Part shown: piece after piece, positions 20,717 through 31,584 of the stretch
Numbering within the stretch: position 1 is the first letter of the stretch
Layout of the letters: the number at the start of each line of letters is the position of its first letter
DNA from: Ferrovibrio sp. MS7
GTDB taxonomy: Bacteria > Pseudomonadota > Alphaproteobacteria > Ferrovibrionales > Ferrovibrionaceae
Direction: 5' to 3'
Assembly: GCF_038404985.1 (NCBI RefSeq)
Contig: NZ_JBBKBA010000001.1
Coordinates: 2,384,001 to 2,448,000 of the forward strand
Length of the DNA: 64,000 nucleotides
The notes under the pieces: model-generated
Databases searched by the model: none
What the model was told of the DNA's origin: nothing
The model's input: only the letters and a program-made list of their open reading frames with translations
Made by a program: the position numbers and the translations under genes

Positions 20717-23443
20717 TCAGGATATTTTCCCATCCACCGCCCGTTGGCCATCGGCCGGCTTGGGATGCAATGGCAGCCGCACCTCGATGGCGTCGCTGCC
20801 CATCACCGGCAGGGTCTGGAACCCGAGTTCGGCGGCCAGGGTACGCATCGCCTGGTTCTCGCGCAGGATGTCGCCGATGATCTCGGCCGTGCCGCGCTGG
20901 CGGCAATAGGCGATGATCTTGCGCATCAAGGCATCGCCCAGGCCTAAGCCCTTCATGTCGCTGCGCACCAGCACGGCGAATTCGGCGCGGATATTGTCCG
21001 GGTCGGTGATGGCGCGCACCACGCCCAGCGTTTCACTGCCATTACCGCCAGAAACCGGTCGTGTGGCGATGAAGGCCATTTCGCGCTCGTAGTCGATCTG
21101 GGTGAAGCGCGCCAGCTCGCGGTGCGGCAGGCGGCGCATCGGCGAAAAGAAGCGCAGGCGGAAATCCTCCGGCGAGACGCGGGCGAGGAAATCCTGGTGC
21201 GCCGGTTCGTCCTCGGGCCGGATCGGGCGCAGCAGCACGCGGCTGCCATCGCGCAATTCGATGGTTTCCTCCAGCGCCGTCGGATAAGGCCGGATCGCCA
21301 GATGGTCCGGACCATGCAGGCTGCTCGGGCTCACCACCATGCGGGCATCCAGCGCCACCAGGCCCTGGTCGTCGGCATAGAGCGGGTTGATGTCGAGTTC
21401 CTTGATCTCGGCATGATCGGAAACGAGCTGCGCCACCCGCACCAGCAATTGCGCCAGTTCGGCGCGGTCGACAACGGGGAAGTCGCGGTATCCCGACAGC
21501 AGCCGGCTGACCTTGGTGCGCTCGATCAGGTCGTTGGCCAGATGCATGTTCAGTGGCGGCAGCGCGATGGCACGGTCGCCGATCACCTCGACGCCGACGC
21601 CGCCCTGGCCGAACATGATCGCCGGGCCGAAGATCGGATCGGTGAGCGCGCCGACGATCAGTTCATGCGCGCGGGCACGGCGCACCATCGGCTGGATGGT
21701 GAAGCCGTCGATACGCGCATCGGGCTTCAGGCGCTTCACGCGCGCCAGCATGCCTTCGGCCGCCGCGCGCACTTCCGCCAGATCATCGAGATTGAGCGCC
21801 ACGCCGCCGACATCGGATTTATGCGTGATGTCGGGCGACAGGATTTTCAGCGCCACCGGGAAGCCCAGGCGCCGCGCCGCGCTCATCGCCGCCTGCGAGG
21901 TCTCCGCCTTCTCGGTCGGCACCGTGGGGATGCCATAGGCGGCGAGGATGCGCTTGCCCTCGATCTCGTTCAGCATGCTGCGGCCTTCGCTCAAGGCCGC
22001 CGTGATCACCGCGCGGGTTGCCGCATGATCGGGGATGAAATCCTCCGGCAGCTCGGCCGGAATTTCCATCAGGTTCTTCTGGTTGCGGCGGTAGTCGATC
22101 ATGTGCTGGAAGGCGCGCGCCGCTGCATCCGGGGTTTCGTAGGAGGGCACATTCGCTGCCGCGAAAGCGCGCCGCGCCGATTGCACCGCTTCGCCGCCGG
22201 ACCAGCAGGCCAGCAGGTTCTTGTCGGTCTTGGCCGCTGCCGCCACCACCGCCTTGGCCGGCTCGATCGGCGGCACGATGGCGGTGGGCGCATACATTGC
22301 CAGCACCGCATCGACATTGGGATCGGCCAGCACGATATCGAGCGCGGCGGTGTAGCGTTCCGCCGGGGCGTCGCCGATCACATCGACGGGATTGCCATGC
22401 GACCAGGTGGCTGGCAGGGCGGCATCCAGCGCTGCCAGGGTTTCGGGCGAGAGATCGGCCAGCCGCCCGCCATAAGCGATCAGCTTGTCCACCGCCATCA
22501 CGCCGGGACCGCCGCCATTGGTGATGATCGCCAGCCGCTCGCCGGGCAGTTTGCGCATATGCGCCAGGGTTTCCACCGCGTCGAACAATTCCTCCACGCC
22601 ATCCACACGCACGATGCCGGCGCGGCGCAAGGCGGCGGTGTAAACGTCGTCGCCGCCAGCCAGCGCGCCGGTATGCGAGGCGGCGGCCTGGGCGGCGCGG
22701 GCATTGCGGCCCGATTTCACCGCCACGATCGGCTTGGTGCGCGCCGCCGCGCGGGCCGCGGAGATGAACTTGCGCGCGTGTTTCACGCTTTCGATGTAGA
22801 GCAGGATGGCGCGGGTATTGGCATCGTTGGCGAGATAATCCAGCACATCGCCGAAATCGACGTCGGCTGAGTCGCCGAGTGAGATGAAGTGGCTGAAGCC
22901 GATGCCGCGCTCGCGGGCCCAGTCCAGCACCATGGTGCAGAGCGCGCCGGACTGGCTGACGAAGGCCAGCCGGCCCGGCTCGGCGGAAGTATGGGCAAAG
23001 CTGGCATTCAGCTTGATGCCGGGAATCAATTGCCCGACGCAGTTCGGCCCCAGGACGCGCAGCAGGTGCGGCCGCGCGGCATCCAGCATCGCCTGCGCCA
23101 GGCTGCGGCCATCGGGTGTCTTGTTGTTGCCAAGGCCGGCGGTGAGCACCACGGCTGCCTTGCAGCCCTTTGCGCCCAGTTCGGCGATCACCTGCGGCAC
23201 TGCTTCCGGCGGCACGCTCACTACCGCCAGGTCTGGCGCGGCTGGAAGGGCTGAGATGGTTGGGAAGCAGGGCAGGCCGCCGAGCAGGCGGTATTTCGGA
23301 TTCACCGGCCAGATCGGCCCGGCGAAACCACCGTCGATCAGGTTTTTCAGCAGCACGGTGCCGACGCGGGCCGGGCGCTCGGAGGCGCCGATCACGGCAA
23401 CGGATTGCGGCGCGAACAGTTTGTCGAGATTGCGGATGGTCAT
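20717..23443 (-). CDS. ADP-forming acyl-CoA synthetase-like protein fused to a GNAT acetyltransferase (Pat-like)
   Basis: A 908-residue fusion. Domains in order: CoA-binding Rossmann domain (about 8-135, VAVIGASERP); succinyl-CoA-synthetase-like domain (about 150-300) with the phosphohistidine motif ASHTGALAGG at His257; second ligase domain (about 300-470); ATP-grasp (about 480-700, with KILSPDITHKSDVGGVALN); and a C-terminal GNAT domain (about 730-890, RPIRPEDEPAHQDF and GLGLGDALMRKII). This is the architecture of Pat/YfiQ protein lysine acetyltransferases. Unlike the enteric Pat, where the catalytic histidine is lost, His257 is kept, so the synthetase half may still be active. Confidence 0.85.
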   Translation of the reverse strand: MTIRNLDKLFAPQSVAVIGASERPARVGTVLLKNLIDGGFAGPIWPVNPKYRLLGGLPCFPTISALPAAPDLAVVSVPPEAVPQVIAELGAKGCKAAVVLTAGLGNNKTPDGRSLAQAMLDAARPHLLRVLGPNCVGQLIPGIKLNASFAHTSAEPGRLAFVSQSGALCTMVLDWARERGIGFSHFISLGDSADVDFGDVLDYLANDANTRAILLYIESVKHARKFISAARAAARTKPIVAVKSGRNARAAQAAASHTGALAGGDDVYTAALRRAGIVRVDGVEELFDAVETLAHMRKLPGERLAIITNGGGPGVMAVDKLIAYGGRLADLSPETLAALDAALPATWSHGNPVDVIGDAPAERYTAALDIVLADPNVDAVLAMYAPTAIVPPIEPAKAVVAAAAKTDKNLLACWSGGEAVQSARRAFAAANVPSYETPDAAARAFQHMIDYRRNQKNLMEIPAELPEDFIPDHAATRAVITAALSEGRSMLNEIEGKRILAAYGIPTVPTEKAETSQAAMSAARRLGFPVALKILSPDITHKSDVGGVALNLDDLAEVRAAAEGMLARVKRLKPDARIDGFTIQPMVRRARAHELIVGALTDPIFGPAIMFGQGGVGVEVIGDRAIALPPLNMHLANDLIERTKVSRLLSGYRDFPVVDRAELAQLLVRVAQLVSDHAEIKELDINPLYADDQGLVALDARMVVSPSSLHGPDHLAIRPYPTALEETIELRDGSRVLLRPIRPEDEPAHQDFLARVSPEDFRLRFFSPMRRLPHRELARFTQIDYEREMAFIATRPVSGGNGSETLGVVRAITDPDNIRAEFAVLVRSDMKGLGLGDALMRKIIAYCRQRGTAEIIGDILRENQAMRTLAAELGFQTLPVMGSDAIEVRLPLHPKPADGQRAVDGKIS

Positions 23444-23450
23444 GGCGCCA

Positions 23451-24881
23451 CTATACCCCGTCGCCTGTTACACTGGCATGGCCAGATTGCCACATCTCCC
23501 AGCCGGCGAGCAGCAGCAAGGGCAGTGGCAACCAGAGCGGCAGGCCGCCGTACCAGAGCGCGAACGGTGCCAGCAGTACCAGCAGGGCGAGCAGTATCCA
23601 GGCGCCTACCGCCGGCTGTTGCGGACAGAGCTTGCGGCCCTGGAGATACAGGATCAGGCCGGTGATCAGATTCACCACGGCGATGGCCAGGGCGGCGCCG
23701 CCAGCGCCGCTGAGCTGCATCAGCGGCCAGGCCAGCGGCACATAGAGCGCCAGGGCCAGCAGGTTATTCTGTGCTGCCCAGGTGGTGTCTGGCAGCCGCA
23801 GCAGGCCGGCGCCGAGGGGCGATTTGATCAGGATGAGATATTGGCTCAGCAGCAGGGCGGCGAAGAGCGGCGCCAGATCGAGCCGTTTTTCGCCGGTGAA
23901 GAGCAGGAACAGCCAGGGTTGCAGCAGCACCAGCAGCAGGTAAAGCAGCCCGCCGGCGGCAATGCTGAGATTGGACACCAGGCCGATGATCGCGGCGGCG
24001 CGCGGGCGCTGCAGCGCATGATGCACCAGCCCGCCCCAGGCCATGAAGAAAGGCAGCGCCAGCAGGGCATCGAACAGCACCGCGATGCGGGCGGCGATCA
24101 GATAATCGGCGGCGGCCTCGATGCCGACCCAGGCGGCAAGCAGAAAGCGGCTGAGGGAATCGAGCGAATAGCGCAGCAGCAGGCCGGCCATCAGCGGGAT
24201 GCCATAGCGCAGCAGCGGCTGCACCTGTGCGCCATCCCAGGCAAACAGCGGACGGCGCCGGATGCCGGCGAGCCCGATCAGCGCCGCGAGCGTCTGGCCG
24301 CAGGTCTGGCCGATCAGCAGGCCGGGCAGGCCGAGACCAGCCCATAATACGAGGACACAACTGGCGAGCAGCCAGACCGCCAGATTGCCCACCGCCAGGA
24401 AGCCGGCCAGCGCCACCCGGCGCTCGGCGCGCAATTCGGTGATCAGCAGGGTCTGCACCGCGCCGCTGAGCATCAAGGGCAGCAGCAGCCAGGCGGAGTC
24501 GAGCGGTGCGGCATCGAACAGCGCCATCGCCTTGGCGCTGCCATAGAACAGCGCCAGCAGGCTGCCGGTGACGATGCCGGAGGCCAGCGCCACCAGCAGC
24601 ACGGTGCCGAGCAGGGCCGGGCGGGCCGATTCGGGCTGGCGCGCATGGTGGTAGAGATAGGCGAATTTCAGGCCCAGCAGGCTTAAGGTGAGGCCCGGCG
24701 TGGCGCCAGCCTCCACCAGGCTGTAGAGCCCGATCTCTTCCGGCGACAAGGCCGTGATCATCAGCGGCAGCAGCAGCAGGTTGCCCAGCGCCAGCAGGCC
24801 GATGGAGACCAGATAGCCGCCAAAATCGCGGTAGAGTGCGTGGCGGAAATCCTCCGGGCTGTGCAGATCGGCGGTATTCAT
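23451..24881 (-). CDS. Polysaccharide/oligosaccharide flippase-like (MOP superfamily) membrane protein
   Basis: A 476-residue protein made almost entirely of hydrophobic helices (12-14), with a short hydrophilic N-terminus (MNTADLHSPEDFRHALYRDF). The first helix region YLVSIGLLALGNLLLLPLMI and the following ALSPEEIGLYSLVEAG match Wzx/RfbX-like flippases, which move lipid-linked sugars across the inner membrane. It is divergent from three glycosyltransferase-like genes around flagellin, so it may belong to surface-sugar export or to flagellin decoration. The exact substrate is unknown. Confidence 0.75.
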   Translation of the reverse strand: MNTADLHSPEDFRHALYRDFGGYLVSIGLLALGNLLLLPLMITALSPEEIGLYSLVEAGATPGLTLSLLGLKFAYLYHHARQPESARPALLGTVLLVALASGIVTGSLLALFYGSAKAMALFDAAPLDSAWLLLPLMLSGAVQTLLITELRAERRVALAGFLAVGNLAVWLLASCVLVLWAGLGLPGLLIGQTCGQTLAALIGLAGIRRRPLFAWDGAQVQPLLRYGIPLMAGLLLRYSLDSLSRFLLAAWVGIEAAADYLIAARIAVLFDALLALPFFMAWGGLVHHALQRPRAAAIIGLVSNLSIAAGGLLYLLLVLLQPWLFLLFTGEKRLDLAPLFAALLLSQYLILIKSPLGAGLLRLPDTTWAAQNNLLALALYVPLAWPLMQLSGAGGAALAIAVVNLITGLILYLQGRKLCPQQPAVGAWILLALLVLLAPFALWYGGLPLWLPLPLLLLAGWEMWQSGHASVTGDGV

Positions 24882-24957
24882 TTTTCCTGCCCGTTTTCCG
24901 GCCCTGGCGATTCAAGGTTTACCATTCGTTACAGGTTATGGCCTATTCGGTCGAGAG

Positions 24958-26490
24958 ATGCCCACCGAATTGCACAGCGCGATTGCCGAGGCCCTGGCCG
25001 CGGCGAAACAGATGATCCGAGTCGGCGATTTCGTCGGCGCCTCCAAGTTGTGCGACAAGCTGCTGCGGGCAGCGCCGCGCCATGGCGAAGTGCTGCTGCT
25101 GCTCGGCCATGTGAAACTCTGCCAGGAAGATGCCGCCGCCGCCTCGCAGGCCCTGCGCGACGGCCTGGCGATCCGCCCCGATATCGCCGAAGGCTGGGTG
25201 CATCTCGGCCTTGTCAGCCGCATGCTGGGCGATAGCAATGGCGCCGCTGCGGCGTTTGGTTATGCGCTGAAGCTGGATCCGAAGAATTACCAGGCGATGA
25301 ATGGCCTCGGCTCGCTGGCGCAGGATGACAGCGATGTGTCCACTGCCGCGCAATGGTTTGCCCGCGCCAGCGAAGCCGCGCCGCTGGATCCGGTGCCGCG
25401 CAAGAATCACGCCTTCAACCTTGGAGTCATGGGGCGACTGGACGAAGCCGAAGCACAATTCGCCAAGGCCCTGGCGATCGATCCGAAGAATTACGAAACG
25501 CGCATGGATTTCGGCATGTTCCAACTGTCGCGCGGCGATTTCGCAAGCGGCTGGGATCTTTATGAAGGCCGCTGGCGCAGCCGCGCCTTCAAGGAGCCCG
25601 ATTGGGGCGGAGCCAAGCCGCGCTGGCAGGGCGAAGCCTTGGCCGGGCGCTCGCTGCTGCTCTGGGGCGAGCAGGGCATCGGCGATCAGGTCCTGCACGG
25701 CACCATGCTGCGCGATGCGATCCGCCGCGTCGATGCGGCAGGCAGTGGCAGCGGCCACGTCATCATTGCCGTGACCGACCGGCTAGTGCCGCTGTTCGAG
25801 CGGGCGCTCGCCGATCTATCGCTACCTGGTATCACCCTGGCCGTGACGCAGCGCCAGGGCGCGGCGGCAGCGGCCGATCTGCAATGTCCCTTCGGCAGCC
25901 TCGGGGGCATCCTGCGCCGCTCGGCAGCCGATTTCGCGACGCATGATGATGGTGCTTATCTGCGCGCCGACCCGGCGCGGCGCGATGCTTTGCGCCAGCG
26001 CTATCAGGCCTTGGCGCCGGGCAACCGGCTGCTTGGCGTCGCCTGGCGCAGCATCAACCCATTCCTGGCCAAGTCGAAGAATCTGTCGCTGGCCGATCTG
26101 GCGCCGGTTTTCGCACTGCCCGGCATTACCTGGGTGAACCTGCAGCATGGCGATGTGGCCGCGGAAATCGCCGCAAGCGGCGTGCCGCTGCATAACGACA
26201 CTACAATCGACACATTCCGCGATCTCGATGGCCATGCGGCCCAGCTTGCCGCGCTCGATGGCGTCGTTGCCATTAGCTGTTCCACGGTGCATCTCGCCGC
26301 GGCCCTCGGCGTGCGCGTCGATCTGCTGCTGCCGCGCGGGCCGGGCCGGCTGTGGTACTGGTCGCGGCCGGAACTGCCGGGGGCCGAGCGCAGCCGCTGG
26401 TACAAGTCGGTGCGGCTGTGGCATCAGCAGCAGCCGGGTGAGTGGCAACAACCGGTCGCGGCCGTGGCCGAGGCGCTGCGCCATGGCTGA
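24958..26490 (+). CDS. TPR-glycosyltransferase fusion, FlmG-like (copy 1)
   Basis: A 510-residue cytoplasmic protein. Residues about 10-200 are tetratricopeptide repeats (for example GWVHLGLVSRMLGDSNGAAA and LDEAEAQFAKALAIDPKN). Residues about 205-510 are a GT-B-type glycosyltransferase domain with LLLWGEQGIGDQVLHGTML, GVAWRSINPFLAKSKNLSL and a C-terminal sugar-nucleotide-type site VAISCSTVHLAAALGV. The plan is that of FlmG, the Caulobacter flagellin glycosyltransferase, and flagellin lies 1.7 kb downstream. The next paralogue starts 8 bases before this stop. Substrate sugar unknown. Confidence 0.82.
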   Translation: MPTELHSAIAEALAAAKQMIRVGDFVGASKLCDKLLRAAPRHGEVLLLLGHVKLCQEDAAAASQALRDGLAIRPDIAEGWVHLGLVSRMLGDSNGAAAAFGYALKLDPKNYQAMNGLGSLAQDDSDVSTAAQWFARASEAAPLDPVPRKNHAFNLGVMGRLDEAEAQFAKALAIDPKNYETRMDFGMFQLSRGDFASGWDLYEGRWRSRAFKEPDWGGAKPRWQGEALAGRSLLLWGEQGIGDQVLHGTMLRDAIRRVDAAGSGSGHVIIAVTDRLVPLFERALADLSLPGITLAVTQRQGAAAAADLQCPFGSLGGILRRSAADFATHDDGAYLRADPARRDALRQRYQALAPGNRLLGVAWRSINPFLAKSKNLSLADLAPVFALPGITWVNLQHGDVAAEIAASGVPLHNDTTIDTFRDLDGHAAQLAALDGVVAISCSTVHLAAALGVRVDLLLPRGPGRLWYWSRPELPGAERSRWYKSVRLWHQQQPGEWQQPVAAVAEALRHG

Positions 26491-28015
26491 TGCTGTTATG
26501 GTCCGGCTGCAGGCGGCATTGATGCAGCATCAGGCCGGCGACCTCGCGGCGGCACGGGCCGGCTATGAAGCCGTGCTGGCAATGCAGCCGGAACAGGCTG
26601 ATGCATTGCATCTGCTCGGCGTGCTGGAGGATCAGCAGGGACACCATGCCGAAGCCGTGGCGCTGATCCGCCGCGCCGTTGCCGCCAGTCCGCGCGCCGC
26701 GAATTTCCAGGGCAATCTCGGCAACGCCTTGCGGGCGCTGGGCGACCATGCCGAGGCCGAGGCCGCCTATCGCGAGGCCAACCGGCTAGATCCGGGTGAT
26801 CCCGAGGCGCTCTATAACCTCGGCAACCTGCTGCGCGACATGCGCAGGCTGGGTGAGGCGGAAGCTGCCTTCCACGCCACCCTGCGCCTGGCACCGAGGC
26901 ATCGCGATGCGCTGCATAACCTCGCCATGCTGCTGTGGGAAGAATATGACGCGCCGGAAGCCGATGCCTTTTTCGCGCAGGCACTTGCTCTCACCCCGCA
27001 GGATCATGCACTGCGCATGCATTACGGCCTCTATTGTCTGGGACGCGACCGCTTCGATCCCGGCTGGGCGCTCTATGAGTCGCGCTGGCAGAGTGGCCTC
27101 TATCCCGAACGCGACTGGGGCATGGGCAAGCCGCTGTGGCGCGGCGAACCGCTCGCGGGCCGCCATCTGCTGCTGTGGGGCGAGCAGGGTGTCGGCGACC
27201 AGATGCTGTATGGCACCATGCTGCGCGAGGCGATTCAGCGGGCTGGTGCGGGCCGTGTAACGATTGCCGTCAGCGACCGTCTGGTGCCGCTCTATGCCCG
27301 TGCCTTCAGCGCTCTCGGTGTTGCCGTGACCACGCGCGAAGGCGCGGCGGCGGCAGCCGATCTGCAATGCCCCTTCGCCAGCCTCGGCGGCATCCTGCGC
27401 CGTGCGCCGGCGGATTTCGCCGGGCATGACGGCGCCTATTTGCGCGCCGATCCGCAGCAGCGCGATACGTTGCGTCAGCGCTATGCTGCCTGGGCGAAAC
27501 CCGGCGACCGCCTGCTCGGCATTTCCTGGCGCAGCACCAATGCGCGGCTGGCGGATCACAAGAGCATTCCGCTGCCGCTGCTGGCGCCGCTTTTCGCGCT
27601 GCCCGGCATCACCTGGATCAGCGTGCAATATGGCGATGTGGCCGCAGATATCGCCGCCGCCGGTGCACCGGTGCGGATTGATGACAGCATCGACGCCATG
27701 CGTGACATGGATGGCTTCGCGGCGCAGCTTGGCGCTCTGGATGGCGTGGTCTCGATCAGCAACAGCGCCGTGCATATGGCCGGCGCGCTGGGGCTGCCCT
27801 GCGATCTACTGCTGCCGCTCGGGGCAGGGCGGCTATGGTACTGGCCGCGACCAGCCCCCGTACCGACGGCTGTACGGGCGGCAGTATCGGATAGCGATAC
27901 CGAATCTGACGCGAAAAGCCGCTGGTATGGCTCACTGCGGCTCTGGCATCAAACTGTCACGTGCGATTGGCGCGCGCCAATAGCGAACCTGGCGGGTTGC
28001 CTCAACCCGGGTTAG
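26483..28015 (+). CDS. TPR-glycosyltransferase fusion, FlmG-like (copy 2)
   Basis: A 510-residue paralogue of the preceding gene, overlapping it by 8 bases. The start MADAVMVRLQAALMQHQAGD is chosen because it fits the first TPR; the frame is open upstream only as a shadow of copy 1. TPRs cover about 5-200 (EALYNLGNLLRDMRRLGEAE). The transferase domain contains LLLWGEQGVGDQMLYGTMLR, GISWRSTNARLADHKSIPL and VSISNSAVHMAGALGLP. An insertion rich in Ser/Asp (SDSDTESDAKS, about 463-473) is absent from copy 1. It ends about 160 bases before flagellin and probably acts on flagellin before export (inference from family and position). Confidence 0.82.
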   Translation: MADAVMVRLQAALMQHQAGDLAAARAGYEAVLAMQPEQADALHLLGVLEDQQGHHAEAVALIRRAVAASPRAANFQGNLGNALRALGDHAEAEAAYREANRLDPGDPEALYNLGNLLRDMRRLGEAEAAFHATLRLAPRHRDALHNLAMLLWEEYDAPEADAFFAQALALTPQDHALRMHYGLYCLGRDRFDPGWALYESRWQSGLYPERDWGMGKPLWRGEPLAGRHLLLWGEQGVGDQMLYGTMLREAIQRAGAGRVTIAVSDRLVPLYARAFSALGVAVTTREGAAAAADLQCPFASLGGILRRAPADFAGHDGAYLRADPQQRDTLRQRYAAWAKPGDRLLGISWRSTNARLADHKSIPLPLLAPLFALPGITWISVQYGDVAADIAAAGAPVRIDDSIDAMRDMDGFAAQLGALDGVVSISNSAVHMAGALGLPCDLLLPLGAGRLWYWPRPAPVPTAVRAAVSDSDTESDAKSRWYGSLRLWHQTVTCDWRAPIANLAGCLNPG

Positions 28016-28092
28016 AGGCTTGATTCTCTAAAACAATTCCGGTTTTCGGGGATATTTCGGGCGAGACGTTAACCAAACTGTTAAAAAATCGC

Positions 28093-28121
28093 TTGACGGG
28101 TGTGTTCCCCGCCACTAATCT
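28093..28121 (+). promoter_or_regulatory. Flagellin promoter (sigma-70-like)
   Basis: TTGACG (28093-28098) and TAATCT (28116-28121) with a 17-base spacer. I found no sigma-54 (GG-N10-GC) site, which many alphaproteobacterial flagellins use. The start of transcription would be near 28128. Confidence 0.65.
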
Positions 28122-28126
28122 CACTC

Positions 28127-28146
28127 CGACTTCCAAAAGGGAGTCG
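28127..28146 (+). promoter_or_regulatory. Stem-loop at the 5' end of the flagellin mRNA
   Basis: CGACTTCC-AAAA-GGGAGTCG forms an 8-bp stem (one G-U) with an AAAA loop. It coincides with the predicted transcription start, so it would be the very 5' end of the mRNA, in a leader of about 48 bases. FlbT acts on the flagellin 5' leader in Caulobacter, which makes this a candidate target (inference). Confidence 0.6.
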
Positions 28147-28175
28147 ACCTCAATCCTAGAACAGGAGTGACTACT

Positions 28176-28997
28176 ATGGCCAATTCAGTAAATACCAACA
28201 TCGGTGCCCTCGTCGCGCTTTCCTCGCTGCGCTCGACCAACGCCGACCTCGACAAGACCTCCAAGCGCATCCAGACCGGCTTCCGCGTTGCGGACGCGCA
28301 GGATGATGCCGCCGTTTTCGCCGTTGCCCAGGGTATTCGTGGCAACGTTAAGGCCTACGCCTCGGTGCAGTCCTCGCTGGCTGCCGGTGAAGGCCTCGGC
28401 CAGGTGACTGGCGCCGCTCTGACCGGCATCTCGAACCTCGTGGGTGACCTCAAGGCCAAGTTCGCCAACCTGGCGGACGGCTCGCTGACCGCTGAGCAGC
28501 GCACCACCTACCAGAACGACGCCAACCAGATCCTGAGCCAGATCACCAACTTCGTGAATCAGGCCACCTACAACGGCAAGAACCTGCTGAACACCACCGC
28601 CACGGTGACCTTCGTGGCCGACGTGTCCGGCACCACCTTGACGCTGCAGACCGGCAACAACACGCTGAACGGCGCGACCGACCTCGGCCAGGTGATCACT
28701 GACTTCACCGACGCCTCGCAGTACTCGACCTCGCTCGCCAGCCTGAACACCTTCGAAGGCCTGGTGAACTCGATCTCCGCGCAGGTTGCCGCGCAGAGCC
28801 GTTCGCTGTCGCTGCAGCGCAGCTTCGTGAACGACCTGGTGGACGCGACCAAGAAGGGCCTCGGCGCCCTGGTGGACGCGGACGTCGCCGCCGAATCCGC
28901 TGCCCTGCAGTCCCTGCAGGTTCGTCAGCAGCTCGGCGTCCAGGCGCTCTCGATCGCCAACCAGCAGCCGAACACCCTGCTCAGCCTGTTCCGCTAA
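28176..28997 (+). CDS. Flagellin (short form)
   Basis: A 273-residue filament protein. The conserved D0/D1 N-terminal domain (MANSVNTNIGALVALSSL, then QTGFRVADAQDDAAVFAVAQ) and C-terminal domain (SLQVRQQLGVQALSIANQQ, ending LLSLFR) are present. The variable middle is only about 60 residues (about 135-195), as in Caulobacter-type flagellins. The middle is rich in Thr/Ser (TATVTFVADVSGTTLTLQTG), which would offer O-glycosylation sites. The ATG at 28176 follows an ACAGGAG ribosome-binding site at 28161-28167. Confidence 0.95.
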   Translation: MANSVNTNIGALVALSSLRSTNADLDKTSKRIQTGFRVADAQDDAAVFAVAQGIRGNVKAYASVQSSLAAGEGLGQVTGAALTGISNLVGDLKAKFANLADGSLTAEQRTTYQNDANQILSQITNFVNQATYNGKNLLNTTATVTFVADVSGTTLTLQTGNNTLNGATDLGQVITDFTDASQYSTSLASLNTFEGLVNSISAQVAAQSRSLSLQRSFVNDLVDATKKGLGALVDADVAAESAALQSLQVRQQLGVQALSIANQQPNTLLSLFR

Positions 28998-29037
28998 TAG
29001 CGGTCAAGCTAAACCGATTGCCGGCAGCAGCCGGCGG

Positions 29038-29068
29038 AAAAGGGGCCGCAAGGCCCCTTTTCTTTTTG
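29038..29068 (+). terminator. Terminator after flagellin
   Basis: The stem AAAAGGGGCC-GCAA-GGCCCCTTTT (29038-29061) is followed by CTTTTTG. Confidence 0.92.
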
Positions 29069-29198
29069 CCATAATGTGACGGTGGGGAGGTAAACCGCGC
29101 AGGGAGCTTCCATAAGCGCGGACAATCGTCTAGCGTCCAGCCAATAACGTCCATGCAGAAAGAGGACCGGGGGCCTTCATGGCGCCCGGAGGTTGTCC

Positions 29199-29615
29199 GT
29201 GCCGCTCATCATCACGCTTAAAGCAGGCGAGAAGTTCATCCTGAATCGGGCAGTGCTGAGTCTGTCCAAGTCAGCCAGCATCGTGATCGAAAACAAGGCT
29301 TCCTTCCTGCGCGAAAAGCATATCATGCGCCTGGAAGACGCAGTCACCCCAGCCAAGAAAATCTACTATCTATGCCAGCTCACATATTTGTGGGAAGATC
29401 GCTTCGAAGAATTTTATCCCCAGATCAAGCAGCTTTGTTTGGACTTCGTTAATGCCGCCCCGAGTACCAATGCCTTGATCGCGAGTATCGGTGCGGCCTT
29501 GGCGCAACAGGACTTTTTCCGCCTCCTGAAGCATGCCCGCCGGCTGATTGAAGTGGAGAGGAGATTGCTCGATGTCGGGAATAAATCCGTACACCAAAGC
29601 CCAGAACGTCCTTGA
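29199..29615 (+). CDS. flbT: FlbT, post-transcriptional regulator of flagellin
   Basis: A 138-residue protein of the FlbT family, which binds flagellin mRNA leaders and couples flagellin synthesis to filament assembly in alphaproteobacteria. The GTG start at 29199 gives PLIITLKAGEKFILNRAVL, the usual family beginning, and has a GGAGG ribosome-binding site 7 bases upstream; an in-frame TTG at 29193 overlaps that site and is rejected. Conserved parts include IVIENKASFLREKHIM and KKIYYLCQLTYL. The 3' end overlaps flaF by 44 bases, so the two are co-translated. Confidence 0.92.
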   Translation: MPLIITLKAGEKFILNRAVLSLSKSASIVIENKASFLREKHIMRLEDAVTPAKKIYYLCQLTYLWEDRFEEFYPQIKQLCLDFVNAAPSTNALIASIGAALAQQDFFRLLKHARRLIEVERRLLDVGNKSVHQSPERP

Positions 29616-29934
29616 GACGCCGCGCCAGATTGAATATCGGCTGTTCTCGTCGGTGACGCGTGCGCTGATGGATGTGCGCCAGCTGATGCAGAGCAAACAT
29701 CCCGGCGATGTTGCCCGCGTCGCCTATGCTATCGGCTGGAACCGCGATGTTTGGAACCATCTGATGCCGGAAGTGCTGGACGAGAAGAATCCGATGAACC
29801 GCGACCTCAAGCTGTCGCTGATCAACATCTGTATTTTCGTCAACAAGCGCACCGACGAGATCACCGAAGGCCGCTCCACCGATATCGAGCCGCTGATCGC
29901 GGTCAACCGCAATATCATGGAAGGCCTGAAGTAA
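29572..29934 (+). CDS. flaF: FlaF, flagellin secretion/assembly regulator
   Basis: A 120-residue member of the FlaF family, which partners FlbT and acts positively on flagellin production or secretion. The ATG at 29572 (MSGINPYTKAQNVLETPRQIE) lies inside flbT and has a GGAGAGGAG-type ribosome-binding site. RDLKLSLINICIFVNKRTDEI near the C-terminus is the family signature. The next gene starts 6 bases after its stop, which ties the third TPR-glycosyltransferase to this regulatory operon. Confidence 0.92.
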   Translation: MSGINPYTKAQNVLETPRQIEYRLFSSVTRALMDVRQLMQSKHPGDVARVAYAIGWNRDVWNHLMPEVLDEKNPMNRDLKLSLINICIFVNKRTDEITEGRSTDIEPLIAVNRNIMEGLK

Positions 29935-29940
29935 GGCCCG

Positions 29941-31584
29941 ATGAATGGCGTGCCGGAGGAAGCCGCAGCCATAGGCAAGCTGTGGCTGGAAGCCAAGAGC
30001 GCGCGCCAGTCCGGCAATCTTGCCGCCTCTACCGAACATCTGCGCCGGGCGCTCGCCATCGCGCCTGACAATCCACTCATCCTGCGCCAACTGGCGGTGC
30101 AGTTGCGCCATGCTGGCGCGCTGCAGGAAGCTCTGGCCTTGCTCGAACCCGCCTTGCCGCTGGCCATCGAGCATCCCGACCTGGCTTTGACCCTTGCCGA
30201 TTGTCTGCTGCAGCAGGGTGGCCCGCGCGCCGCGCTTGCCACGCTTGACTATGTGCTGCGCCAGCGCGGGGACCAGCCGGCAGAACTGCTGCTTGGCAAG
30301 GCGCGGCTGCATTACATGCAGCATGAATTCCCCGCCGCCGAAGCCGCCTTGCGCGACGTGGTGCGCCAGTCGCCGCAGCGGGCGGAAGCCTGGTCCTTGC
30401 TCAGCGCCATTGCCATCGAACTCGGCCGCGATGAGGAAGCCGGCACCGCCAGCCGGCTGGCGCTGAAAATCGACCCGAAGCAGGTGATTGCACTCGGCAC
30501 CAAGGGGCAGCTTGCCGCCGAGGCCGGCGATAGCGATGCGGCGCGGCATTTCTTCGATCGTGCCCTGGCGCTGGAGCCGGATAACGCCCGCATCCACTAC
30601 ATGCTCGGCCTGCTCGATCTCTCGCTCGGCAATTATGCCGCGGGCTGGCGCGGCTTTGCCTGGCGTCACCGGGTGACACCGCGCATCGCTGCCGATTTCA
30701 GCTACGGCCTGCCAGCCTGGCAGCCGGCGGAGACCGCGCCGCAGGGCCGCCTGCTGATCTGGGGTGAGCAGGGCATCGGCGACGAGATCATGTTTGCCGG
30801 CATGGTAAGTGGGTTGCTGGTGCGCGAGGTGCGGCCGCTGCTGCTCACCGATCCGCGCCTGGCGCCGCTGTTTTCACGGTCGCTGCCGGGCATCGATGTG
30901 GCCGCGCGCCACCCTGGATTTGCCCCGCGCAGCGAAGGCATCACGCGCCAGATAGCGGCTGGCGATCTCGGTGCGCTGCTGCGCCCAGACCGCGCGGCGT
31001 TTCCGGTGCGCAGCCGCTACCTTGCCGCAGACCCGGCAAGGGTACGCCACTTCCGCGCCAAATATGCCGAATTGGCGCGCGGCAACAAACTGGTCGGCAT
31101 TGCCTGGCGCAGCAGCAACGCGGCGCAGGGGCCTTACAAGTCGCTGGCGCTCGACGATTTCGCCCCGCTGCTGCGGCAGCCGGGCTGCTGCTTCATCAAT
31201 CTCCAGTATGGCAATAACGCCGCCGAGATCGCGGCCTTGCGTGAGACGCATGGCCTTGTGCTGCATGACGACGACGAGGTCGATCCTTTGCGCTCGCTTG
31301 AAGACCAGGCGGCACAGATCGCGGCGCTGGATTGCGTGGTCAGTACGTCGAATTCCGCCGTGCATCTGGCCGGCGCGCTGGGGGTGCCGACCTGGCTGCT
31401 GCTGCCGCACCGGGGGCGTGGCGTGCAGTGGTATTGGGGGCAGGCCGGTGCCGAGACGCCATGGTACAGCAGCCTCCGGTTGTTGCGATCTGCCGCCAGC
31501 GAAACCCTGGCCGTGCAGCTCCAGCGGAGAATGGCCGAGTTCGCCGCCTGGCTGGCCGATTTCCGCGCTGTAACCGCTAATTGA
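29941..31584 (+). CDS. TPR-glycosyltransferase fusion, FlmG-like (copy 3)
   Basis: A 547-residue protein with a longer TPR array (about 10-230, HLRRALAIAPDNPLILRQLA and further repeats) and the same C-terminal transferase-like domain: LLIWGEQGIGDEIMFAGMVS, GIAWRSSNAAQGPYKSLAL and VSTSNSAVHLAGALGVPTW. It is more diverged from copies 1 and 2 than they are from each other: the ADLQCPF-type segment that follows the first motif in copies 1 and 2 is not evident. It starts 6 bases after flaF, so it is the last gene of flbT-flaF-TPR. It may modify flagellin with a different sugar or act at a different step (inference). Confidence 0.8.
   Translation: MNGVPEEAAAIGKLWLEAKSARQSGNLAASTEHLRRALAIAPDNPLILRQLAVQLRHAGALQEALALLEPALPLAIEHPDLALTLADCLLQQGGPRAALATLDYVLRQRGDQPAELLLGKARLHYMQHEFPAAEAALRDVVRQSPQRAEAWSLLSAIAIELGRDEEAGTASRLALKIDPKQVIALGTKGQLAAEAGDSDAARHFFDRALALEPDNARIHYMLGLLDLSLGNYAAGWRGFAWRHRVTPRIAADFSYGLPAWQPAETAPQGRLLIWGEQGIGDEIMFAGMVSGLLVREVRPLLLTDPRLAPLFSRSLPGIDVAARHPGFAPRSEGITRQIAAGDLGALLRPDRAAFPVRSRYLAADPARVRHFRAKYAELARGNKLVGIAWRSSNAAQGPYKSLALDDFAPLLRQPGCCFINLQYGNNAAEIAALRETHGLVLHDDDEVDPLRSLEDQAAQIAALDCVVSTSNSAVHLAGALGVPTWLLLPHRGRGVQWYWGQAGAETPWYSSLRLLRSAASETLAVQLQRRMAEFAAWLADFRAVTAN

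Follow-up and report, generated by a model that had tools for sequence, protein, structure and literature searches.

A conserved candidate locus for FlmG-like flagellin glycosylation with three TPR-glycosyltransferases in Ferrovibrio sp. MS7

The window analyzed here is a 64,000-nucleotide stretch from the genome of the alphaproteobacterium Ferrovibrio sp. MS7 (G000; 4.58 Mb, 5 contigs, 99.89% complete). In it, a flagellin gene is accompanied by three genes, A, B, and C, for predicted glycosyltransferases (GTs) with tetratricopeptide repeats (TPRs), and by a divergent flippase gene. A sequence-only reading of this DNA had proposed an FlmG-like flagellin glycosylation system. Architecture, synteny, and genome comparison support this prediction well and point to a real, conserved locus that is ordinary in kind. 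Its unusual traits are the three enzymes, the lack of a nonulosonic acid pathway, and module-wise evolution. Our preferred explanation, at a probability of roughly 60%, is a cytoplasmic, flagellin-dedicated unit for FlmG-type O-glycosylation that uses a donor other than a nonulosonic acid, with A and B sharing one chemistry on two recognition modules.

The proposed pathway would run as follows. The N-terminal TPR superhelix of each enzyme would bind flagellin ahead of export. The C-terminal GT-B domain, with a GT9-like fold, would then transfer a sugar from a soluble nucleotide sugar to serine or threonine residues of the exposed flagellin region, after which FlaF would assist export. The donor is probably a sugar nucleotide that the cell makes anyway; we would first suspect ADP-heptose, and after it CMP-Kdo, dTDP-rhamnose, or a UDP-hexose. 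A and B may direct the same chemistry to different sites or flagellin copies. C would represent a separate lineage whose TPR half has been exchanged between strains.

A flagellin-centered unit in the genus

The gene order is pat and flippase on the minus strand, then A, B, flagellin, flbT, flaF, C, and a 73-residue gene on the plus strand, followed by a 66-residue gene on the minus strand (Table 1). The two tandem TPR-glycosyltransferases upstream of flagellin and the third enzyme 6 bases after flaF agree with the sequence-only reading: A and B share 8 bases and C starts at 29941. Its Wzx-like flippase also holds, scoring above the Pfam cut-off for PF13440 and slightly under that for PF01943. 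The three TPR plus GT-B proteins stand as far as the repeats go, which are strong in all three (Pfam). No Pfam GT family reaches the GT-B part of any of the three proteins; it is assigned by structure model for B and by alignment to B for A and C. The flagellin, described as single, is so within the window, but the genome holds a copy with 97% protein identity about 171 kb away (G000:C1:2584423-2585247, also L044:9605-10426, minus strand) and a 39%-identical relative. The variable region is nearly fully common to the window flagellin and the second copy, which has a different upstream region and adjoins a mechanosensitive-channel gene.

When B is searched against its own genome, 12 matches are found at E 1e-5. 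The GT domain is covered only by A, B, and C, all within 6.6 kb, and the other nine matches are confined to the TPR part. Chance does not explain the locus, since the only three genes found in the genome with this catalytic domain cluster in 6.6 kb and the order recurs in relatives.

These relatives come from a comparison of 41 genomes, in which G001 to G008 belong to the same genus, and from a sister strain, Ferrovibrio sp. Gw_Bodden_bin_214 (L087), whose locus is close to identical with the region (98% to B). The order flippase, A-type, B-type, flagellin is common to G000, G003, G004, G006, G008, and L087, and in all six flagellin is linked to flbT and flaF. Around this core the unit varies. 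G003 lacks C, and the small gene comes after flaF. A third GT lies upstream in G004 and G008, the cluster of G004 contains two flagellins, G006 carries two C-type genes, and in G008 the unit is broken across two contigs. G002 and G005 have an empty site, with pat and flbT adjacent (238 and 276 bases apart) and no flippase, GT, or flagellin between them. The contig stops right after the flippase in G001 and right after flbT in G007; in the latter, flaF is followed by the small gene with no intervening C.

At E 1e-8, six of the 41 genomes contain a flippase ortholog: G001 and the five Ferrovibrio genomes that carry the unit. Gain and loss of the flippase thus go together with those of the unit, and it is inherited as a member of it, though none of the proposed steps requires a flippase; the earlier remark that its role is unexplained still applies. 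Flagellin is exported from the cytoplasm through the export channel, and a lipid-linked pathway leading from the flippase to flagellin was for that reason not adopted.

Two halves with two histories

A and B diverge more in the TPR half (31% identity) than in the GT half (63%). A and B types were assigned from gene position and similarity over the full length. On that basis, all B-type rows fall into one clade of the TPR tree (96/98) and the A-type rows group at weaker support (81/89). In the GT tree the picture changes. The GT halves of A and B from G006 are sisters (91/93 in a small tree, 100/93 in a larger one), and a B clade is rejected by the approximately unbiased test (p 3e-5), as is the G006 A and B pair for the TPR halves (p 8e-5); both p-values are optimistic, because the question was posed after the GT tree had been inspected. 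In G000 and G003 the A/B split of the GT halves predates the species split, and the GT domain of C is a clade apart from A and B. These trees are most simply read as a single catalytic type retained on two recognition types that have persisted.

The sequence-only reading had suggested a multi-sugar or sequential modification. In this alternative, which we regard as unlikely, the three enzymes work one after another, each contributing a different sugar to a multi-sugar glycan. It draws on the separate clade of C and on the differing TPR halves of A, B, and C. For A and B the idea is weakened, since identity between their GT halves is about double that between their TPR halves and the GT halves do not group by gene, which argues against different sugars. 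G003 has A and B without C, and G006 has two C-type genes, which also count against an ordered series. C, as a separate lineage, could add something different.

At strain level, comparison with L087 shows a mosaic. The flanks of the two strains differ at 93 of 8328 and 69 of 6316 bases (1.1% each). With tract limits set after viewing the divergence profile, much higher values are seen in A residues 121-460, covering the last repeats and the GT domain (42 of 186 and 163 of 834 bases, 22.6% and 19.5%), in the flagellin variable region (30 of 180, 16.7%), and in C residues 1-213, the TPR half (118 of 639, 18.5%). Other parts differ at the flank rate: the first repeats of A (0.6%), the end of A (0.0%), the B TPR half (0.8%), and the C-terminal part of flagellin (1.3%). 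Intermediate values are found for the C GT half (2.2%), flbT-flaF (2.6%), the B GT half (3.8%), the N-terminal part of flagellin (5.8%), and the flagellin-flbT spacer (8.5%). Synonymous divergence (dS) is 0.41 in A, 0.08 in B, 0.25 in C, 0.20 in flagellin, and 0.16 in flaF, whereas the flippase (0.048), flbT, pat, and the two tested genes downstream lie in the range 0.014-0.058. A, B, C, and flagellin all have a ratio of nonsynonymous to synonymous divergence (dN/dS) of 0.14-0.19. From these sequence comparisons, the mosaic looks like an exchange of working alleles centered on flagellin and its putative enzymes. Gene conversion from A to B as the source of the strain difference in A is not supported, as the A-B identities of the window and of L087 are alike over the tract.

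The mosaic bears on a second alternative, in which the enzymes act on a target other than flagellin, for example a surface polysaccharide handled with the flippase, and flagellin is merely adjacent. The flippase does travel with the unit, and relatives of the enzymes elsewhere adjoin type II secretion and pilin genes. We nevertheless judge this reading rather improbable: flagellin sits within the conserved unit, C is in the flbT-flaF operon, TPR-GT genes adjoin flagellin in other families, and the exchange tracts fall in the flagellin variable region, A, and C and spare the flippase.

Catalytic fold and candidate sugar donors

The full-length model of B has a predicted local distance difference test (pLDDT) value of 94.8 and a predicted template modeling score (pTM) of 0.91. 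Its top Foldseek matches are OGT and SPINDLY of family GT41, which share the TPR plus GT-B layout, but full-length superposition is poor (query template modeling (TM) score 0.31-0.42 and root mean square deviation >12 for the ten best). When the GT domain is modeled alone (pLDDT 93.2, pTM 0.92), the nearest structures are GT9 proteins, namely 3tov (E 7.9e-9), WaaF (2.1e-7), and WaaC (from 1.3e-5), and TibC follows from 1.1e-4; two chloroplast NDH-complex chains (1.2e-6, 2.9e-5) are interspersed. Neither OGT nor SPINDLY is among the best 50 matches of this domain, which thus lacks a GT41 assignment. Kinship of A, B, and C with OGT and SPINDLY was rejected on these grounds and because the sequence matches lie in the TPRs.

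WaaF and WaaC, the GT9 heptosyltransferases of lipopolysaccharide synthesis, are the best fold neighbors of the B GT domain. Unlike A, B, and C, they have no TPRs and act on a lipid acceptor. The GT9-type fold is found for B, while the Pfam GT9 profile (PF01075) matches none of the three enzymes. Among the wider family, 13 of 58 scanned GT domains match PF01075 at E 0.01, the best at 3e-6. The link by sequence is thin: among solved structures without TPRs, WaaF is the only one recognizable as a glycosyltransferase, at E 0.0014 from one alignment and 0.4 from another, shorter alignment. Because the modeled catalytic domain of B is closest to GT9 heptosyltransferases, ADP-heptose may be considered a candidate donor.

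TibC moves heptose onto protein and has Asp110 as candidate catalytic base and Lys230 as a sugar-binding residue (PMC4358343). As is proposed for B, the TibC/BAHT protein heptosyltransferases are soluble and modify a protein in the cytoplasm (PMC4358343). They differ in using autotransporter acceptors and in the N-terminal beta-barrel and iron finger of TibC (PMC4358343); the B model has TPR helices in place of the barrel. In a 64-row alignment, the aspartate of the GxGD motif (D239 of B) is D in 57 rows and E in 7, and K360 of B is K in 47 rows and R in 13. We infer that D239 and K360 correspond to Asp110 and Lys230 of TibC. The motifs common to the family are present in A, B, and C. It is therefore very improbable that A, B, or C, or more than one of them, has lost activity and serves solely as a reservoir for recombination, for although copy number differs between species, all three retain open frames and these motifs, with dN/dS as given above.

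As published, FlmG of Caulobacter crescentus transfers pseudaminic acid, and its authors propose NeuB as a marker of genomes able to produce such sugars, which could then be screened for flagellin glycosylation (PMC7591256). FlmG resembles A, B, and C in combining N-terminal TPRs with a C-terminal GT-B domain in about 500-600 residues and in its tie to the flagellar system (PMC7591256); here too the enzymes are candidate cytoplasmic flagellin O-glycosyltransferases. Of the features of the FlmG class, the TPR plus GT-B layout and linkage to a flagellin gene are present, and NeuB, the mark of a nonulosonic acid donor, has no match in the genome. The class is further characterized by flagellin binding through the TPR domain and by an enzyme both necessary and sufficient to modify flagellin (PMC7591256). 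Ferrovibrio also differs in having three enzymes rather than one and no pseudaminic acid pathway. The likeness is one of architecture and gene linkage. A literature search returned no paper that, judged by title or abstract opening, covered this locus or the heptosylation of flagellin by enzymes with TPRs. A later paper reportedly describes switching of the FlmG donor between pseudaminic and legionaminic acid.

The sequence-only reading had placed donor synthesis elsewhere in the genome. The window indeed holds no such pathway, but the genome-wide search for nonulosonic acid synthesis genes that it had proposed came back empty as well. NeuB (PF03102) has no match in G000, with 9 of 14 control genomes positive, Caulobacter included. 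CTP_transf_3 has three matches, and the only one over the cut-off is KdsB, leaving no CMP-nonulosonic acid synthetase above cut-off in the genome. A home-made nonulosonic acid is thus very unlikely as donor and practically excluded. Six of the nine Ferrovibrio genomes have NeuB; the three that lack it are G000, G003, and G007, of which G003 is 83% and G007 87% complete. The A/B unit accompanies NeuB in G004, G006, and G008 and is present without it in G000 and G003, and so is independent of NeuB. Two other TPR-GT families, with proteins of about 606 and 568 residues, occur in G001, G002, G004, G005, and G008, which all have NeuB; neither family was seen in G006, which also has NeuB, or in the three genomes that lack it. 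Maf flagellin glycosyltransferases would do the same cytoplasmic job and are of a different family. None of the nine Ferrovibrio genomes matches their PF01973 domain; the bacterial controls were negative too, but three other genomes of the family were positive.

A third alternative is that A, B, and C are ordinary FlmG-type nonulosonic acid transferases whose donor pathway was missed, has been replaced, or is bypassed by uptake from outside. The shared architecture and the unit in three NeuB-bearing species speak for it. We hold it to be decidedly improbable, given a NeuB search that is empty in a nearly complete genome and the lack of a CMP-nonulosonic acid synthetase above cut-off. For the non-nonulosonic donor that we favor, ADP-heptose, CMP-Kdo, dTDP-rhamnose, and the common UDP-sugars are the remaining candidates. 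HldE, needed for ADP-heptose, scores above cut-off in G000, which also encodes two GT9 proteins elsewhere. Heptose-kinase-like paralogs below cut-off (about 110 bits, frames of 534-547 residues) were noted at G001:C98:94967 and G030:C1:3743672, about 12-19 kb from NeuB, and at G017:C97:42791, about 13 kb from a flagellin gene.

Several points weigh against our preferred explanation. Activity, acceptor, donor, and the division of sites are drawn from comparison rather than direct evidence, and the flippase has no place in the proposed mechanism. The GT halves of A and B show no special closeness in G004 and G008, where they form separate pairs (52-53% within each genome); from these patterns, homogenization is proposed for the G006 and G000/G003 lineages at some past time and not as a steady process. 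The GT9 link comes from the fold of B and from relatives. The GT9 structure matches of B have TM scores of 0.37-0.55, the rhamnosyltransferase EarP (4.4e-4) is also among the fold matches, and PF01075 is not matched by A, B, or C even at E 10, nor do they appear among the PF01075 matches listed for the genome. A similarly weak GT9 signal (E 0.059) comes from L081, a relative located in a NeuB cluster, and the fold therefore does not settle the donor. Lastly, serine and threonine enrichment of the exposed flagellin region is weak. An excess of these residues in unit flagellins was rejected, as their share (26-40% in 11 rows) overlaps that of the main flagellins of G001, G002, and G005 (25-29%).

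A more specific version is tentative and, in our estimate, would more probably fail than hold. Flagellin would be O-heptosylated, or carry another non-nonulosonic sugar, through a TPR-GT9-like toolkit. In certain lineages the catalytic halves would have been homogenized, while recognition halves would remain distinct or be traded between strains, accompanied by change in the variable region of flagellin. The result would be a rapidly evolving mix-and-match marking of the surface and one branch of a wider TPR-GT family that is also found next to pilin-type secretion genes. If the preferred explanation is true, the presence of three FlmG-like enzymes linked to flagellin in a bacterium without NeuB would show that this architecture serves other donors too, and surveys based on NeuB would overlook such systems. 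The separate TPR and catalytic histories would also offer natural module swaps for probing how acceptor specificity is programmed, which the FlmG paper terms poorly understood (PMC7591256).

Features of the locus and the wider TPR-GT family

Table 1. Features at the flagellin locus of the window (positions counted from its first base).
Feature	Coordinates	Strand	Basis
CoA-ligase-type gene	20717-23443	-	domains found by Pfam
MOP/Wzx-like flippase, divergent from A	23451-24881	-	PF13440, 26.6 bits (cut-off 23)
TPR-glycosyltransferase A, 510 aa	24958-26490	+	TPR families (Pfam); GT domain 63% identical to B
TPR-glycosyltransferase B, 510 aa	26483-28015	+	TPR families; structure model; GT domain GT9-like by Foldseek
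Sigma-70-like promoter ahead of flagellin (TTGACG, 17 bases, TAATCT)	28093-28121	+	read by eye
Flagellin, 273 aa, best start ATG 28176	28176-28997	+	PF00669 and PF00700 above cut-off
flbT	29199-29615	+	PF07378
flaF	29572-29934	+	PF07309
TPR-glycosyltransferase C, 547 aa, start 6 bases past flaF	29941-31584	+	TPR families; GT clade apart from A/B
Small conserved gene, 73 aa	31698-31919	+	no Pfam or NCBIfam match
Small gene, 66 aa	32091-32291	-	no Pfam or NCBIfam match

The CoA-ligase-type gene is presumably pat, the label used here. For B, the start at 26147 listed with the open reading frames (ORFs) falls within A. A TTGAC box similar to that of the flagellin promoter is seen in four of nine other aligned upstream regions (L087, G003a, G006a, and G004a). 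Both small genes are conserved at this position whether or not a Ferrovibrio species has the unit, and the product of the minus-strand gene looks YjfB-like.

A search of named collections gave at least 77 loci, 74 of which (L090 to L163) lie outside the Ferrovibrio unit; three of these 74 are listed with a flagellin match. TPR-GT genes adjoin flagellin also in G018, G020, G030, L125, L128, and L146. In G020, G030, and G018 (L079, L081, and L083), which are outside the family, they adjoin flagellin, flbT, and flaF, and in G030 NeuB lies about 8 kb from flagellin. A neighbor survey covered 143 of 302 ORFs (up to three nearest per locus, up to 600 residues, nearest first, two dropped on checking). 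Among the best 25 of 134 neighbor families were T2SSE (7), N_methyl (6), Glyco_transf_8 (4), T2SSK (4), and Flagellin_N (3).

Relatives of A, B, and C thus also adjoin pilin-type secretion genes, some in arrays of six. An HldE-like gene with reversed domain order, adenylyltransferase then kinase, both under the NCBIfam cut-offs, lies inside one TPR-GT array (L113:16440-17987, minus strand; the same gene of the same contig is L101:20602-22149). Tandem arrays were seen at L090, L091, L096, L109, L093, L097, L099, L112, L113, L118, L140, and L143, several with six genes, and their proteins include forms of about 1000-1450 residues. A type II/IV secretion ATPase gene adjoins the array in L090 and L099, and in L099 an N_methyl pseudopilin gene is present as well.

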